Of a DNA stretch of 11,419 nucleotides, positions 1,915 through 11,419 are shown one piece after another. The notes beneath the pieces were generated by a model. The model was not told where the DNA came from. It was given only the letters and a program-made list of their open reading frames with translations, and searched no databases. The position numbers and the translations under genes are program-made. This stretch comes from Candidatus Eisenbacteria bacterium (GTDB lineage: Bacteria; Eisenbacteria; RBG-16-71-46; JAFGJU01): positions 1 through 11,419 of the forward strand of contig JAPLKG010000015.1 of NCBI GenBank assembly GCA_026388185.1, read 5' to 3'. Numbering within the stretch: the first letter of the stretch is position 1; each line of letters begins with the position of its first letter.

Positions 1915-3171
1915 ATGACAATAATCGAGAAGATCCTTTCAACAGGCTCCGGCAAGGCAGTGAAGCCGAACGACAGGGTTTGGGCGGGGATAGATCTGGC
2001 CGTCATCAGAGACTTCGGAGGCCCGAACGTGGTCATTGAATACGAAAAGACCTTCGGCGAGAGACCGGTGTGGGACCCTTCACGGGTGGCTCTCACGTTT
2101 GATTACCAGGCTCCCGCCAAGGTTTCGGACGTTGCAAACAACCAGAGAATCTGCAGAGAATTCGCCAAGAAACAAGGCATACAGAAATTGTTCGACGTCA
2201 ACGCCGGCATCGGTCAGCACGTTCTTCTGGAGCACGGTCTTATACGTCCCGGTTCCATTGTCGTCGGAACCGACAGTCACATGAACCTGCTCGGCGCTGC
2301 GGGATGTTTCGCAACCGGAGTCGGGACCACGGACATGGTGGCCACATGGTACGCGGGCAGGCTGTGGTTCAAAGTACCGGAGACAATCAAAGTCAATTTC
2401 AAGGGCAAGTATTCGTTTCCCACGACCGCGAAGGACCTCACTCTGTACTTCATTTCTCGCATCGGTCCGGACAAGCCGAACTACAAGTCGCTCGAGTTCT
2501 ACGGGGACGTAATCAACGGTTTCCAACTGCATGACGCGATCACGCTCGCCAGCATGATCACGGAAATAAATGGAAAGATAGGCTTCGTGCCCACCAATCA
2601 CCAGATCTCTGAATTTCTCAAGAGCCGCATGGGAGAGGCTTCGGAGCCCGTCTTGGCAGACGCCGACGCGACCTACTCCGAGAGCATCGAGATTGACATA
2701 CATGACCTGCCCCCTCAGGTCGCCTGCCCGCACGCACCTGGAAATGTGAGGCCGGTCTCCCAGGTGAAGGGGACTCACATAGATTTTGCGTTCGTGGGTT
2801 CGTGTACGAACGGGAGATACGAGGACCTTTCCGAGGCCGCAGCGGTGCTCAAGGCCGGAGGACGGGTTCATCCTTCCGTTCAGCTCACGATAGTGCCGGC
2901 CACGATTGAGGTGGCAAGAAAATGCCTCAAGGCGGGTCATTACGAAACGTTCCTGGAGGCGGGTGCGATAGTGACTAATCCGGGCTGCAGTTTGTGTACG
3001 ACGGGGCATCACGGCGTCCTCGGCAAGGGCGACGTGCTCATAAGCACGTCGAACAGGAATTTTCTCGGAAAACTGGGTAAGGGGTCTCAGGTTTACCTGG
3101 CGAGTCCGGCAACGGTGGCCGCGTCTGCGGTGAAGGGCGAAATCGCCGATCCGGGCGAATTCCTGAGGTAG
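1915..3171 (+). CDS. Divergent aconitase/isopropylmalate dehydratase large subunit (pair 1)
   Basis: This is a 418-residue large subunit of the LeuC/HacA family, the compact archaeal-type length rather than the roughly 466 residues of enterobacterial LeuC. It should carry a [4Fe-4S] cluster: Cys297 in GSCTNGR, and Cys358 and Cys361 in NPGCSLC. The DSH motif at residues 120-122 and the C-terminal STSNRNF and YLASPATVAASA blocks are conserved. Unlike its neighbour (3711-4967), it reads Asp63-Tyr64 where the family has Asp-His (aconitase Asp100-His101). It has Arg32 where the paralogue has His35 (aconitase Gln72 region), and Gln101-His102 where the paralogue has His102-Gln103. The motif after the cysteines is CTTGHHG rather than CLGxHxG. 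It therefore probably binds an Fe-S cluster but may use an unusual substrate or be catalytically altered. ATG 1915 is chosen because AGGTGA overlaps the preceding stop and the protein begins MTIIEKIL, as expected. Its small subunit follows after 30 bases. Confidence 0.88.
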   Translation: MTIIEKILSTGSGKAVKPNDRVWAGIDLAVIRDFGGPNVVIEYEKTFGERPVWDPSRVALTFDYQAPAKVSDVANNQRICREFAKKQGIQKLFDVNAGIGQHVLLEHGLIRPGSIVVGTDSHMNLLGAAGCFATGVGTTDMVATWYAGRLWFKVPETIKVNFKGKYSFPTTAKDLTLYFISRIGPDKPNYKSLEFYGDVINGFQLHDAITLASMITEINGKIGFVPTNHQISEFLKSRMGEASEPVLADADATYSESIEIDIHDLPPQVACPHAPGNVRPVSQVKGTHIDFAFVGSCTNGRYEDLSEAAAVLKAGGRVHPSVQLTIVPATIEVARKCLKAGHYETFLEAGAIVTNPGCSLCTTGHHGVLGKGDVLISTSNRNFLGKLGKGSQVYLASPATVAASAVKGEIADPGEFLR

Positions 3172-3201
3172 TACCGAACGATAAACCACGGAGCGATTGC
3201 C

Positions 3202-3696
3202 ATGAAACTGAAAGGTAGAGCGTGGGTGACGGGGGACGACATCGACACGGATCAAATCTATCACGGCCAATACTTGCCGGTAACCGACCCGCACGAGATG
3301 GCCAAACATGCCATGGAGTACGTTCCCGGCATGGAGAATTTTCCGCGCGAAGCACGAAGCGGAGACGTGGTCGTGGCCGGGAAAAACTTCGGGACCGGAA
3401 GCTCGAGAGAGCACGCGGTGTTGTGTCTTCAGTACCTCGGGATTTCGTGCGTGGTTGCCAAGTCCTTCAGCAGAATTTTCTTCAGGAACGCGGTCAACCT
3501 GGGCTTTCCCGTCATCGAATGTCCCGAGATCTCTGACACCATGAAGACCGGCGATATCGTCGAGGTGCACGTTGACAGCGGTAAGATAATCGATCTCACG
3601 ACGGGTGAGTCATTTCAAGGAATCCCGGCGTCCGGTCTGGAAAAGGAAATCGCGGGGTCCGGAGGACTGATCGAGTATCTGAAGAAGAACGCTTAG
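3202..3696 (+). CDS. Aconitase/isopropylmalate dehydratase small subunit (pair 1)
   Basis: This is a 164-residue LeuD/HacB-type swivel-domain subunit, the short archaeal-type length (bacterial LeuD is about 200). Visible family features are KGRAWVTGDDIDTD at the N-terminus, the active-site GTGSSREH with Ser67-Ser68-Arg69 (aconitase Ser642-Arg644 region), and the SFSRIFFRNAVNLGFP core. In this family the Ser is the catalytic base and the Arg binds a substrate carboxylate. The loop thought to set substrate specificity reads Tyr24-Leu-Pro-Val. That is neither the YLRT reported for methanogen homoaconitase nor the YLV[YM] form linked to isopropylmalate isomerase. It follows the divergent large subunit and precedes the second large subunit by 14 bases, so the expected complex is with 1915-3171. 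A GGAG at 3190-3193 serves as ribosome binding site. Family and partner are clear; the substrate is not. Confidence 0.88.
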   Translation: MKLKGRAWVTGDDIDTDQIYHGQYLPVTDPHEMAKHAMEYVPGMENFPREARSGDVVVAGKNFGTGSSREHAVLCLQYLGISCVVAKSFSRIFFRNAVNLGFPVIECPEISDTMKTGDIVEVHVDSGKIIDLTTGESFQGIPASGLEKEIAGSGGLIEYLKKNA

Positions 3697-3710: not shown

Positions 3711-4967
3711 ATGGGACTCACGTTCGCGGAAAAGCTCCTCGCCTTTAAGGCCGGGACTGACTTTGTGCAACCGGGGCAGATAGTGGAAGTGTCGCCCGAC
3801 GTTGCGATGAGCCACGACAATGCCGGTCTTGTGATAAGACAGTTCAGACAGATCGGCGTCGACAGAGTGTGGGATCCGTCAAAGATAGTGATTCCACTCG
3901 ATCATCGCGTGCCCGCAGAATCCACCAAGACCGCAAATGCTCACAAATCAATAAGAGAGTTCGTCAAGGAACAAGGAATAGCCTCGTTCTACGACGTGGG
4001 AGAGGGGGTCTGCCACCAGGTCCTGGTGGAAAAGGGACACGTGCTTCCCGGAATGCTCGCGCTCGGCACCGACTCGCACACCACGTCGTACGGTTGCGTT
4101 GGGGCCTTCGGTACCGGAATAGGCGCGACCGAGATGGCGGCCGTGTGGGCGACCGGGAAGATATGGCTGAGGGTGCCCGAATCCATAAGGGTTCACGTGC
4201 ACGGCAGTTTCCCCGAGATGGTCTTTCCGAAAGACTTCATTCTTCATCTCGTGGGGAGACTTGGAGCCGAAGGCGCAAACTATTGCTCGGTGGAATTTCA
4301 CGGACCCGCGATGGCCGGCATCGGAATCCCCGGTCGGTTCACCATCTGTAATCTCTCGATGGAGATGGGCGCGAAGAACGCCGTCGTGCCCGTTGACAGA
4401 GTCACCACCGCGTTTTTCGAGGGTCTGAAAGTGACGGGCGGCAAGGCATTCCATCCCGATCCCGACGCGGCCTACGTGCGAGAAGAGACCTGCAACATAT
4501 CGCTGATGGTGCCGCAGGTGGCCTGTCCCCACGGCGTCGACAACGTGAAGCCCGTCGCCGAAATGGAGGGCACGAGGATCGATCAAGCAGTGCTTGGCTC
4601 GTGCACTAACGGAAGAATTGAAGACTTGAGAGAAGCGGCATCCGTCATGGCCGGGAGACGTGTTCATCCTCACGTGAGGATGCTCGTTGTTCCCGCCTCG
4701 AGGACCGTTCTTCTCGAGGGAATAAGGACCGGCGTTATCACGGAGCTCATAGAGGCCGGGGCCGTGCTGGTGAATCCCGGGTGTGGTCCCTGTCTGGGCG
4801 CGCACGAAGGAATCCTCGCCGACGGCGAGATCTGCATCGCGTCGACAAATCGCAATTTCAAGGGCAGGATGGGGAGTCCGACATCCGAGGTCTATCTGGC
4901 AAGTCCTGCCACCGTGGCCGCGAGCGCGGTCGCCGGAAAGATAACGGATCCGCGAAGGGTGAAGTGA
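3711..4967 (+). CDS. leuC: 3-isopropylmalate dehydratase/aconitase-type large subunit (pair 2)
   Basis: This is a 418-residue LeuC/HacA-family hydro-lyase large subunit with an intact set of family residues. His35 in MSHD, Asp64-His65 in LDHRVPAE, His102 in CHQVL and GTDSHTTSYG are all present. The cluster cysteines are Cys298 in GSCTNGR and Cys358/Cys361 in NPGCGPCLG. It should isomerise a 2-hydroxy or 3-hydroxy acid by dehydration and rehydration. Candidates are citrate/isocitrate, homocitrate/homoisocitrate, citramalate and isopropylmalate; the symbol leuC denotes the family, not a proven substrate. Same length as the 1915-3171 product and clearly homologous, but well diverged from it by eye, so it is an old duplication rather than a recent copy. 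AAGGGG is 4 bases before ATG 3711. The small subunit begins 19 bases after its stop. The gene order lyase, two hydro-lyases, dehydrogenase suggests this intact pair is the better candidate for the aconitase-like step, which is inference. Confidence 0.9.
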   Translation: MGLTFAEKLLAFKAGTDFVQPGQIVEVSPDVAMSHDNAGLVIRQFRQIGVDRVWDPSKIVIPLDHRVPAESTKTANAHKSIREFVKEQGIASFYDVGEGVCHQVLVEKGHVLPGMLALGTDSHTTSYGCVGAFGTGIGATEMAAVWATGKIWLRVPESIRVHVHGSFPEMVFPKDFILHLVGRLGAEGANYCSVEFHGPAMAGIGIPGRFTICNLSMEMGAKNAVVPVDRVTTAFFEGLKVTGGKAFHPDPDAAYVREETCNISLMVPQVACPHGVDNVKPVAEMEGTRIDQAVLGSCTNGRIEDLREAASVMAGRRVHPHVRMLVVPASRTVLLEGIRTGVITELIEAGAVLVNPGCGPCLGAHEGILADGEICIASTNRNFKGRMGSPTSEVYLASPATVAASAVAGKITDPRRVK

Positions 4968-4970
4968 GTC

Positions 4971-4978
4971 AAGGAGGG
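4971..4978 (+). promoter_or_regulatory. Strong Shine-Dalgarno that points to a TTG start at 4987
   Basis: AAGGAGGG is the strongest ribosome binding site in the window. It lies 8 bases before TTG 4987 but 17 bases before the in-frame ATG 4996, which has only weak GG-rich sequence of its own. This spacing favours TTG as initiator, adding three residues (MET before MKGRVW). The protein family tolerates either start. Confidence 0.55.
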
Positions 4979-4986
4979 CGGGTAGG

Positions 4987-5484
4987 TTGGAAACAATGAA
5001 AGGTCGAGTCTGGGTGCTCGGCGACAACGTCGACACGGACGTCATATATCCTGGGAAGTATCTCCCGATAATCGTTCCGGAGGAGATGGCGCTTCATGCG
5101 CTCGAGGGAGTCGACCCGCAGTTCGCGAGCAAGTTGAAACCGGGAGACATAATCGTCGCCGGCTCGAACTTCGGATGTGGTAGTTCGAGAGAGCAGGCCG
5201 CCACGTGTCTCAAAGCCGCGGGCGTGGCCGCGGTTGTTGCCGGTTCGTATTCGAGGATATTCTTCCGCAACGCCCTCAATCAGGGTTTGCCCCTCGTCGA
5301 ATCAAGAGAATGCAGCAAGCGCGTCAAGGAAGGCGACGTCGTGACGATTGATTTTGGACGAGGGAAGATTCTCCTTCCCGGGGGAGAGATGTCTTTCGAG
5401 CCACTGCCTTCCTTTCTCACGGAGATACTCGAGGACGGAGGTCTCATAGAGCACACAAAAAAGAAGATCGCGAAGGAACAATAG
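4987..5484 (+). CDS. leuD: 3-isopropylmalate dehydratase/aconitase-type small subunit (pair 2)
   Basis: This is a LeuD/HacB-type small subunit of 165 residues from TTG 4987, or 162 from ATG 4996. Family features are GRVWVLGDNVDTD, the active-site GCGSSREQ with Ser66-Ser67-Arg68, and a YSRIFFRNALNQGLP core. The His that follows SSRE in the pair 1 subunit is Gln70 here. The specificity loop reads Tyr25-Leu-Pro-Ile, again without the Arg of the homoaconitase YLRT loop, so the two small subunits share a YLP[VI] loop. It should form the active site together with the large subunit encoded immediately upstream, closing the swivel domain over the Fe-S cluster. The dehydrogenase gene begins 27 bases downstream, so product hand-over from hydro-lyase to dehydrogenase is likely. 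The symbol leuD is a family label; the natural substrate could equally be citrate or a homologue. Confidence 0.9.
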   Translation: METMKGRVWVLGDNVDTDVIYPGKYLPIIVPEEMALHALEGVDPQFASKLKPGDIIVAGSNFGCGSSREQAATCLKAAGVAAVVAGSYSRIFFRNALNQGLPLVESRECSKRVKEGDVVTIDFGRGKILLPGGEMSFEPLPSFLTEILEDGGLIEHTKKKIAKEQ

Positions 5485-5511: not shown

Positions 5512-6567
5512 ATGGCCAGGTACACGATTGCATGGATGCCCGGGGACGGAATCGGAGTGGACGTTCTGGACGCGGCGAAGATTGTTTTTGATGCAATGGC
5601 GCTGGACGCCGAGTACGTCACCGCCGAGATAGGCTGGACCTGCTGGGAAAGATACGGAAACGCGCTTCCGGATGCCACGGTCGAGATTCTCAAGAACTCT
5701 ACGTGCGGATTCTTTGGCGCCATCACTTCGAAGCCGCACGTTCCCGGCTACCGCAGTCCCATAGTCAAGATGAGGCAGCTCTTCGATCTCTACGTCAATC
5801 TGCGTCCCTGCAAGGCCTATCCGGGAAATCCTCTAAACCTGAAGGAAGGCATAGACCTCGTGATCTTCCGCGAAAACACCGAGGGCCTCTATTTCGGGGC
5901 AGAGTTCTTTCCGATGCCGAAGGAAATAGCCGGACTCGAAGGAGTGAAGGGAAGGGTCGATCCGAGCGAGACGGCAGTGTCACTCAGAGTGATAACGCGC
6001 AAGGGCTCTCACAGAATTGTTAAGGCCGCCTTTGAATACGCAAGAAAACACGAGAGGAAGAGTGTCACCGTGGTGCACAAGGCGAACGTCCTGAGAAAGA
6101 CGTGCGGTCTCTTCCTGGAAGAAGCTCAGAAGGTCGCCAAGGAATTCGCGGACATCGAGTACAGAGAGGCCAACGTTGACGCAGTCGCCATGTGGCTCAT
6201 CAAGAATCCGACCGATTATGACGTGTTCGTGACGACGAATCTCTTCGGCGACATAATCTCCGACGAGGCGGCCCAGCTCGTGGGAGGCCTCGGTTTTGCT
6301 TCGTCGGGCAACATAGGCGAGAAGTTTGCCGTCTTCGAGCCTACGCACGGCTCCGCCCCCAAGTACGCCGGCCAGTACAAGGTAAATCCCATGGCGACGC
6401 TGCTTGCGGCGAGATTGATGCTGGAATGGCTTGGAGAAACGGCGAAGGCTCAGAGGCTCGAAGCGGCAATAACCGCCGTAATAAGAGAGGGCAGGAAGAG
6501 AACGTACGACATGGGCGGAACCTCGACCACACTGGAAGTCGCTGAAGAAGTCGCAAGAAAAGTCTGA
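5512..6567 (+). CDS. Isocitrate/homoisocitrate/isopropylmalate-type beta-decarboxylating dehydrogenase
   Basis: The 351-residue product oxidises a 3-hydroxy-2-alkyl dicarboxylic or tricarboxylic acid to a 2-oxoacid with loss of CO2. Family residues are in place: Arg88, Arg98 and Arg120 (E. coli Icd Arg119, Arg129, Arg153), Tyr127, Lys190 in VHKANV, and the metal aspartates in TTNLFGDIISDEAA. The substrate loop is YRSPIV followed by KMR. Ser82 matches isocitrate dehydrogenase Ser113, but Ile84 stands at the Asn115 position. The S-P-I-V form resembles homoisocitrate dehydrogenases and archaeal-type enzymes. The cofactor segment HGSAPKYAG has Lys284, Tyr285 and Val291, matching the NADP determinants Lys344, Tyr345 and Val351 of E. 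coli Icd; NAD enzymes usually have Asp-Ile. The C-terminal TYDMGGT, however, looks NAD-type. GGAGG lies 5 bases before ATG 5512. It closes the tight gene run, so isocitrate to 2-oxoglutarate is the leading guess. Confidence 0.85.
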   Translation: MARYTIAWMPGDGIGVDVLDAAKIVFDAMALDAEYVTAEIGWTCWERYGNALPDATVEILKNSTCGFFGAITSKPHVPGYRSPIVKMRQLFDLYVNLRPCKAYPGNPLNLKEGIDLVIFRENTEGLYFGAEFFPMPKEIAGLEGVKGRVDPSETAVSLRVITRKGSHRIVKAAFEYARKHERKSVTVVHKANVLRKTCGLFLEEAQKVAKEFADIEYREANVDAVAMWLIKNPTDYDVFVTTNLFGDIISDEAAQLVGGLGFASSGNIGEKFAVFEPTHGSAPKYAGQYKVNPMATLLAARLMLEWLGETAKAQRLEAAITAVIREGRKRTYDMGGTSTTLEVAEEVARKV

Positions 6568-6650: not shown

Positions 6651-9452
<2,802 letters not shown>

Positions 9453-9660: not shown

Positions 9661-9714
9661 AAGAGATTTGTCCTTGCGGAAAGGCTTCTTCCAATGCCGG
9701 GACGGAAGGTTTCC

Positions 9715-11419
9715 ATGCTCCGACACCGACAGCTTACAGACATAGTGGCGCGGCAACGGCTTTTCGCGGTCCCAGTGAGGTTCGCCGCCGTCTGGGCAGT
9801 TCTTTCTCTTGTTGCTTCCGCGCCGTGCCTGGCCGCACCTGGGAGCGGCACTGCCGAAATGTGGCCCAACACGGACGCGGTGGCCGGCACGTACGGCCAA
9901 TGGACCATCAGGTACACTGCCGCAGAGGACTTCGGCGGGGACGGGGGTACGGTGGCTATCGATATTCCTGAGGGATGGAGTGCTCCCCAGCTTTCGGACT
10001 CGACCGTGGAAGGATTCGTGCGGGCGACGCTCTCGGGTCTGTTTGATCCTGACTCGCTGGTCATAGTGGACAGAACGATTCGTCTGCATATCGGAAGTCT
10101 CCCCCAGAGCTTTAGCAACGGAGACTTCGTTGAAGTCATCTACGGCGGTTCATACAGTCTGGCCAGGGCGCAGACCACGGCGCCGGACTCCGCCTCATTC
10201 GTTGTGAAGAGCGATCCGGATGGTGACTCTCCACAGGCCCTCACGTCAGGCTCTCCCAAGATCAGCGTTCTCCCCGGGCCGAGTTCCAGAGTGGTCGTAT
10301 TCTTCGCCGGGAGCGAAGCGGGTGAGATAGGCTTCACCGCCGATCAGAACTCCAACGTCTTCACGGCCAAGGGATTTGACGACTACGACAACCCCACGGG
10401 CGGAGTAAGCTGCACGTGGAGCGTCACGGGCGAAATCGGTGAACTCGTCGGCGGTAAGGATTCGACCATCACCCTTGACGCTGACAAGACCGGTACCGGA
10501 TACATCATTGCCGAAGACGACTTCGCCCACGTCGACTCGACGGGGCTCGTCACGGTCACGAACGGAGCCTACACGCGGCTCGACGTTGCCCAGGCCGACA
10601 CGGCTGTCGCCGGAGAAGATTTCTCTGTTGCGGCGGCCGCCCTCGATGCTGACGGAAACATCGTCACTACCGGGGTCGGAAGTGACGATGTGCTCACTTT
10701 GACCGCGTGGAGCGACTCCGTTGGCAGTGTGCCCGGAACCGGAAGTCTTTTCATAGCGACCATGGACCTTTCGCAGGGCCAGGGCAGTATCGATGAGAAG
10801 TATTTCGTGGCCGAGTCCATCTACATCAGAGCCGTCGATGACGCAGACACCACGATTCGCGATTTCGGCCCGACGCCTACTGTCGTCACGCCCGGAAGTC
10901 CTTCCGTCCTTGTCGTCATCCCGGACAGCTTGTTCCTCGTTGCCGGCACGCAAGGGACGTTTTTGTTCACGTCGCTGGACTCCTTCGGTAACGTATCTCC
11001 CGTGTCCTCTCCGCAGACTCTGCAACTAGCGACAAGCTCTGTCTCGGGAGAGTTCAGGGAAGTTGGGGGAGTGGACGAGATATTTGAGAAGGTGATGGCG
11101 GAGGATAGTTCACAGGTTTCCTTCGACTACTATGACATTGGGGCTGGCGAGTTCCAGATCACCGTGACGGACGTTGACACAAATACCCCGGCATTCCCCA
11201 CAGTCACGACGTACGCTTCGATTCGTTATTCCGTAGAGGATACTCTTATTGTGTCCAGCGTATCGGATCCTGTCGTTTCCGGAACTTCGAGCGACGTTGT
11301 CGTTGAGGTGAGGGACAGGTTTGGGAACAGGGTGCCTGACTACGATGGGACAATCGAGTTTTCGAGCAGCGACGGCAACCCCGAGACCGTTCTTCCACCT
11401 GACTACACGTTTGTTCTGC
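9715..11419 (+). CDS. Large secreted protein with tandem Ig-like domains, 5' part
   Basis: The frame stays open to the window edge, giving 568 residues and no stop. Residues 1-40 form a Sec signal peptide: an Arg-rich start, the hydrophobic stretch FAAVWAVLSLVA, and a probable cleavage after SAPCLA. There is no proper lipobox. Residues 41-185 form a beta-rich domain with GTYGQWTIRYTA and IPEGWSAPQ. From about residue 190, four Ig-like or invasin-like blocks start near 190, 287, 397 and 509, each about 100 residues. Typical strands are SLDSFGNVSP and VRDRFGNRVPDYDG followed by TIEFSSSDG, ending in LPPDYTF. This is the pattern of long bacterial surface or secreted adhesion-type proteins; anchoring or secretion signals would lie beyond the edge. 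GGAAGG is 5 bases before ATG 9715. An in-frame ATG at 9694 with GGAAAGG upstream would add seven residues. It is unrelated in function to the metabolic genes and probably belongs to another transcript. Ligand and role are unknown. Confidence 0.8.
   Translation, partial: MLRHRQLTDIVARQRLFAVPVRFAAVWAVLSLVASAPCLAAPGSGTAEMWPNTDAVAGTYGQWTIRYTAAEDFGGDGGTVAIDIPEGWSAPQLSDSTVEGFVRATLSGLFDPDSLVIVDRTIRLHIGSLPQSFSNGDFVEVIYGGSYSLARAQTTAPDSASFVVKSDPDGDSPQALTSGSPKISVLPGPSSRVVVFFAGSEAGEIGFTADQNSNVFTAKGFDDYDNPTGGVSCTWSVTGEIGELVGGKDSTITLDADKTGTGYIIAEDDFAHVDSTGLVTVTNGAYTRLDVAQADTAVAGEDFSVAAAALDADGNIVTTGVGSDDVLTLTAWSDSVGSVPGTGSLFIATMDLSQGQGSIDEKYFVAESIYIRAVDDADTTIRDFGPTPTVVTPGSPSVLVVIPDSLFLVAGTQGTFLFTSLDSFGNVSPVSSPQTLQLATSSVSGEFREVGGVDEIFEKVMAEDSSQVSFDYYDIGAGEFQITVTDVDTNTPAFPTVTTYASIRYSVEDTLIVSSVSDPVVSGTSSDVVVEVRDRFGNRVPDYDGTIEFSSSDGNPETVLPPDYTFVL

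Follow-up and report, generated by a model that had tools for sequence, protein, structure and literature searches.

An aconitase-family enzyme pair with a remodelled active site in Candidatus Eisenbacteria, and its tentative placement in a reversed alpha-aminoadipate pathway

Gene content of the locus

The window, that is, the whole stretch of 11,419 nucleotides that we analysed, is positions 1 to 11,419 of contig JAPLKG010000015.1 from a Candidatus Eisenbacteria bacterium (GCA_026388185.1). It contains a gene cluster with two pairs of LeuC/LeuD-type subunits, the first of which is divergent and the second ordinary.

1-360, + strand: C-terminal end of an asparaginase-II family gene (Pfam PF06089, positions 221-321)
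486-1238, + strand: P0005, short citryl-CoA lyase-like protein with citrate-synthase fold (NF004869, 281 bits against a cut-off of 212)
1278-1910, + strand: P0006, HD-domain protein, usual neighbour of the divergent pair (PF01966, TIGR00277, synteny)
1915-3171, + strand: P0001, divergent LeuC/HacA-type large subunit (R32, D63-Y64, Q101-H102, S213, K386)
2101-2106, + strand: Asp63-Tyr64 codons (GAT TAC) of P0001, aligning to aconitase Asp100-His101
2215-2220, + strand: Gln101-His102 codons (CAG CAC) of P0001, with Gln at the His147 site and a His102 that is invariant in the clade
3202-3696, + strand: P0002, cognate LeuD-type small subunit (GSSRE motif, clade-specific His21)
3262-3264, + strand: His21 codon (CAC), in the P0002 loop after Asp-Thr-Asp
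3711-4967, + strand: P0003, ordinary large subunit with all catalytic residues, proposed homoaconitase
4996-5484, + strand: P0004, ordinary small subunit
5512-6567, + strand: P0007, isocitrate/homoisocitrate dehydrogenase family, Ser-Pro-Ile-Val motif, proposed homoisocitrate dehydrogenase
6651-9452, + strand: P0009, pyruvate phosphate dikinase (PPDK) at the cluster end (TIGR01828, 1350 bits against a cut-off of 843)

Beyond the cluster, positions 9694-11419 cover the beginning of a large protein that looks secreted and is cut off by the contig end; its only Pfam match, Ig-like, is sub-threshold. At its end, contig C7 of the window's genome carries the N-terminal part of the asparaginase-II gene (residues 11-143). 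Because this gene is split across both contig ends, C7 and the window contig are very probably adjacent, with about 75 asparaginase-II residues missing between them. The C7 end reads, in order, an aldehyde dehydrogenase (ALDH), a class-III omega-aminotransferase, SucC-like and SucD-like genes and the asparaginase-II start. The omega-aminotransferase scored 611 bits against PRK05769 (cut-off 552), a model that is not lysine-specific, and the ALDH scored best, though below the cut-off, against a model for 2-oxoglutarate semialdehyde dehydrogenase. P0007 fell below every equivalog cut-off (AksF2, 378 against 540 bits). The dehydrogenases of this module have Ser-Pro-Ile-Val where isocitrate dehydrogenases have Ser-x-Asn-Val, and by sequence this motif fits a homoisocitrate dehydrogenase rather than an isocitrate dehydrogenase. 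For P0005 we propose a homocitryl-CoA lyase, a substrate suggested by the operon.

Elsewhere, the genome (G000) encodes a full citrate synthase and, separately, a third LeuC/LeuD-type pair, which is aconitase-type and of the Gln class. This pair, at G000:C11:316917-318649 (L130), has Gln at the site of mitochondrial aconitase Gln72 and falls in a tree group shared with pairs that adjoin Ser-x-Asn isocitrate dehydrogenases; it is probably this genome's true aconitase.

The divergent large subunit has lost two catalytic histidines

P0001 scored above the curated cut-offs of two family profiles (PRK00402, 468.6 against 385 bits; TIGR01343, 447.3 against 385.7 bits) and below the equivalog cut-offs for 3-isopropylmalate dehydratase (TIGR02083, 390.7 against 610.65 bits) and methanogen homoaconitase (NF040615, 377.1 against 550 bits). 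Its alignment with the paralogue P0003 was free of gaps across the active-site stretch. In HMMER alignments with the large subunits of Methanocaldococcus jannaschii isopropylmalate isomerase (IPMI) and homoaconitase (HACN) and with pig aconitase, P0003 residue H65 fell on His101 and H102 on His147. At the positions where P0003 has H35, D64-H65 and H102-Q103, P0001 has Arg32 (AGA, 2008-2010) at the Gln72/His site, Tyr64 for His101 and Gln101 for His147. The residue differences listed in the first-pass annotation, foremost the missing histidine of the Asp-His pair, were thus borne out by the codons and alignments alike, and no alignment placed a histidine of P0001 at the His101 site.

Further substitutions that had gone unremarked are Ser213 for Asn258, Lys386 for Arg452 and Gly100 for the 'fourth cysteine'. 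Equivalents of Asp100, Asp165-Ser-His167, Glu262, Arg447 and Cys358/421/424 are retained, the three cluster cysteines being residues 297, 358 and 361 of P0001. The earlier statement that the Asp-Ser-His motif, the cysteines and the Ser-Ser-Arg motif of the partner (GSSRE) are kept is therefore correct, as is the view that the pair retains its cluster ligands around an altered active site.

The altered residues define a conserved clade

The first-pass annotation had proposed a search for homologues with Asp-Tyr at this position; 50 relatives from several phyla proved to share the altered pattern. Zixibacteria, Chloroflexi and G001, a genome of the same family as the window, supplied sequences 58-70% identical to P0001, and less similar ones came from Cloacimonadota, Neomarinimicrobiota, the window's class and two further lineages. 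In a 90-row tree built by a quick method, all 23 divergent rows, which had been chosen by similarity and not by the Gln/Thr/Ser-His pattern, formed one clade with a long stem (SH-aLRT 100).

The 50 clade members were themselves chosen by the Gln/Thr/Ser-His pattern, so that independent evidence comes from the remaining columns alone. Their signature reads Arg; Asp-Tyr/Cys/Thr; Gly-Gln/Thr/Ser-His; Ser; Lys, and it was found in none of 81 other family members. Arg32 was present in 49/49, Ser replaced Asn258 in 50/50, Lys replaced Arg452 in 48/49, Gly stood at the 'fourth cysteine' in 50/50 and the cluster cysteines were complete in 50/50. The classical catalytic set is therefore broken throughout the clade, with Asp100 kept and His101, His147, Asn258 and Arg452 replaced. 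The first-pass annotation had allowed that the Gln-His difference could be a one-residue alignment shift. This no longer holds, as the clade has Gln, Thr or Ser at the His147 site and His at the following position in 50/50 members, while the His147 site itself is His in 81/81 others. Every family member compared from outside the clade has His101 and His147 and no clade member has either, so neither chance nor sequencing error explains their loss. Two subclades differ in what replaced them, either Tyr with Gln or Cys/Thr with Thr/Ser, which indicates that the loss is old.

Among four close pairs, dN/dS (NG86) was 0.06-0.10. A single mutated or decaying gene was also considered and is ruled out by the clade, its signature and these ratios, with the copy in G001 perhaps excepted. 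There (L004/L046), Asp165 is replaced by Gly and Gln stands at the Arg452 site; no cognate small subunit for the divergent large subunit was found in that genome, and the copy may be a remnant or have changed its role further.

As far as sequence can tell, P0001 belongs to a conserved, specialised aconitase subfamily with an active site remodelled in both subunits. This branch apparently has not been described so far. PDB sequences and PMC full text yielded no characterised member, with Tyr at the His101 site or otherwise, and a literature search from which subscription journals were mostly absent found no relevant paper on active-site-variant aconitase paralogues.

The small subunit carries a matching change

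The loop position of P0002 that holds His21, a residue that the first-pass annotation did not mention, was His in 31 of 98 small subunits, every one from genomes of the clade; the remaining 67 had Pro, Ala, Gly or Ser there. GSSR was kept in all listed cognate small subunits. In many genomes of the Cloacimonadota phylum the divergent large and small subunits are naturally fused into a protein of about 600 aa. An AlphaFold model of the divergent large subunit had a confident aconitase fold (pLDDT 91), with MJ1003 homoaconitase as its nearest structure (Z 55). The matching histidine, the fusions and the confident fold together point to an enzyme with a rebuilt acid/base set, not to a dead or sensing protein.

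These observations bear on the possibility that the divergent pair is a non-catalytic partner that binds or regulates the ordinary pair, or senses the state of its cluster. Such a role would agree with the loss of two acid/base histidines of aconitase, with the intact ordinary pair next door and with the G001 copy that lacks Asp165 and a small subunit. We nonetheless regard it as improbable: the new residues are invariant across phyla, Ser-Ser-Arg is kept, dN/dS is low, the partner in the fusions is a catalytic small subunit, the operon is metabolic, and in many genomes the divergent pair does not adjoin the ordinary one. Of the two functions suggested in the first-pass annotation, a different or narrowed reaction is hence the better reading, and regulation or Fe-S sensing fares poorly.

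Operons of relatives point to a possible link with lysine

Chloroflexota genome G321 has the genes of the window plus lysine-ketoglutarate reductase (LKR) and saccharopine dehydrogenase (SDH). Its order is LKR, SDH, SucC, SucD, Ccl, HD, the ordinary pair (P3-P4), a dehydrogenase 60% identical to P0007 and the divergent pair (P1-P2). In operons from the Cloacimonadota phylum the order is SDH, LKR, CitDE, CitF, dehydrogenase, HD, P1P2 and P3P4, with both pairs fused. LKR matched the lysine-ketoglutarate reductase domain of human AASS (E 1e-75) and SDH matched saccharopine dehydrogenase (E 3e-89). Within 8 kb of contig ends, neither was found in the window's genome. In Zixibacteria genome G172 an aminotransferase precedes SucC, as on C7.

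The HD gene nearly always lies directly before the divergent gene (window; L027, L034, L049, L132, L216-L225, L230-L235). It also follows a citryl-CoA-lyase-like gene in several Zixibacteria that lack the divergent pair. Among 132 Zixibacteria genomes, Ccl was found in 90, HD in 87 and the divergent pair in 12; with Ccl and HD this common where the pair is absent, their co-occurrence there is unusable as evidence. An asparaginase-II gene lies within the shared gene order both in the window's genome (C7 end, L261) and in Zixibacteria (L025, L232, L233, L234), where a TrpB-like PLP enzyme is also found between HD and the divergent gene (L025, L231-L234; PF00291 in L025). In G001, ALDH, aminotransferase, P1 and PPDK form an unbroken run from which Ccl, HD, P2, P3, P4 and the dehydrogenase are absent, and PPDK, which ends the window cluster, comes after the divergent gene.

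The same genes could act on C6 tricarboxylates, in a reductive citric-acid cycle or an ornithine/glutamate or ornithine/citrate version of the pathway, with the divergent pair as a split or accessory aconitase. Isocitrate would then pass through cis-aconitate, citrate and citryl-CoA to acetyl-CoA and oxaloacetate. The SucCD-like ligase plus Ccl resembles citryl-CoA synthetase/lyase, PPDK is present in the window, and G012 and its class carry 2-oxoacid:ferredoxin oxidoreductase and ATP-citrate-lyase-like genes, the latter being found in G021 too. The aminotransferase family includes ornithine-type enzymes, which would suit the ornithine/glutamate version. Against the cycle stand LKR and SDH in the relatives' operons, the Ser-Pro-Ile-Val motif of the dehydrogenase, and the Gln-class pair and citrate synthase that G000 has elsewhere. 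We consider the C6 assignment unlikely, though with an appreciable chance. A plain reductive citric-acid cycle had been our initial reading of the context, from G012 and G063, and was demoted by LKR/SDH, CitDEF and the Ser-Pro-Ile-Val dehydrogenase.

A possible role in a reversed alpha-aminoadipate pathway

Placement of the divergent pair in the homocitrate-homoaconitate-homoisocitrate segment is fairly well supported. That the pair at 1915-3696 is a subfamily [4Fe-4S] hydro-lyase of this segment, in a pathway most likely reversed for lysine breakdown, is a reading to which we give close to an even chance. For the substrate, direction and half-reaction of each pair, what we infer is as follows.

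Aminoadipate semialdehyde is formed from lysine either via LKR plus SDH or via a lysine omega-aminotransferase. The window's genome would use its omega-aminotransferase and the relatives LKR and saccharopine dehydrogenase, and it is this exchange within the same operon that points to lysine. The semialdehyde would be converted to 2-aminoadipate and then 2-oxoadipate, which P0007 would reductively carboxylate to homoisocitrate. The ordinary pair (3711-5484) may interconvert homoisocitrate and homoaconitate, and the divergent pair (1915-3696) homoaconitate and homocitrate. The SucCD-like ligase plus P0005 would then take homocitrate via homocitryl-CoA to 2-oxoglutarate and acetyl-CoA. The reverse direction is suggested by the genes for citrate-lyase-type cleavage, no homocitrate synthase having been seen among the operon genes.

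The division of labour between the pairs is drawn by analogy with a two-enzyme isomerisation. In fungi, homoaconitase is limited to the step between homoaconitate and homoisocitrate, homocitrate being left to another enzyme of the aconitase family; Thermus aconitase converts homocitrate too (PMC3556520). A divergent pair dedicated to homoaconitate and homocitrate, with the ordinary pair serving homoisocitrate and homoaconitate, is on this analogy conceivable but doubtful. The divergent pair has lost His101 and His147 and installed Arg32, His102, Ser213, Lys386 and the small-subunit His21. It retains its cluster ligands, the small subunit's catalytic Ser and Arg, and the equivalents of Asp165 and of Glu262-His167.

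It may instead be a hydro-lyase of this pathway, or of one linked to it, that acts on a different, unnamed substrate; the additional Arg32 suggests a further acidic group. Several substrate-contact positions changed together, and His102 and His21 are new. In Zixibacteria, and in some members of the Cloacimonadota phylum, the divergent gene also stands alone, apart from the dehydrogenase and the ordinary pair. Its tight operon bond with the ordinary pair, the HD gene and the dehydrogenase in several lineages argues the other way, and we hold a different substrate to be rather unlikely.

Taken as a whole, our proposal is that anaerobic lysine breakdown runs the alpha-aminoadipate route in reverse: CO2 is added to 2-oxoadipate, homocitrate is cut by citrate-lyase-type enzymes, and a new aconitase subfamily serves the route with acid/base residues that have moved, partly onto the small subunit. 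We advance it tentatively, as possible rather than probable. A literature search covering few subscription journals found no relevant paper on reversed aminoadipate lysine degradation or on saccharopine genes with citrate lyase.

Classical aconitases have more than 15 of 20 active-site residues in common, and aconitase X (AcnX) is the only branch that departs (PMC8184944). Another such branch, present in bacteria of several phyla and with its cluster site intact, would reveal which of the catalytic residues are free to move. If the operon reading is true, uncultured anaerobes including Cloacimonadota and Zixibacteria gain a new way to degrade lysine, the textbook biosynthesis reversed, much as the oxidative citric-acid cycle is run backwards in its reductive form.

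Comparison with known systems

HacAB and LeuCD (MJ1003, MJ0499) are closest to the divergent pair, with two subunits, fold Z scores of 55 and 52.6 and 39-42% identity. They share its cluster cysteines, Ser-Ser-Arg, Asp165, His167, Glu262 and Arg447. However, the clade replaces His101, His147, Asn258 and Arg452 and has new invariant Arg32, His102 and small-subunit His21. Mitochondrial aconitase and IRP1 share the fold of domains 1-3 (Z 40.7 and 30.4) and the cluster ligands, but the divergent protein lacks the Asp100-His101 pair and His147.

Aconitase X, which comprises hydroxyproline and mevalonate-phosphate dehydratases, is the other aconitase branch that departs from the classical catalytic residues (PMC8184944). 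Its similarity to the divergent subunit (Z about 19-20, 13-15% identity) is well below that of HACN and IPMI, and its own cluster ligands differ, whereas the P0001 clade keeps the equivalents of Cys358/421/424.

At the pathway level, the relatives' operons combine genes of the saccharopine (AASS) and alpha-aminoadipate pathways, namely LKR, SDH, homoisocitrate-dehydrogenase-like and homoaconitase-like genes. In mammals, 2-oxoadipate is converted to glutaryl-CoA. Unlike in these known pathways, the citrate-lyase-type genes, or CoA-ligase plus lyase genes, of the operons suggest that homocitrate is cleaved and not synthesised.
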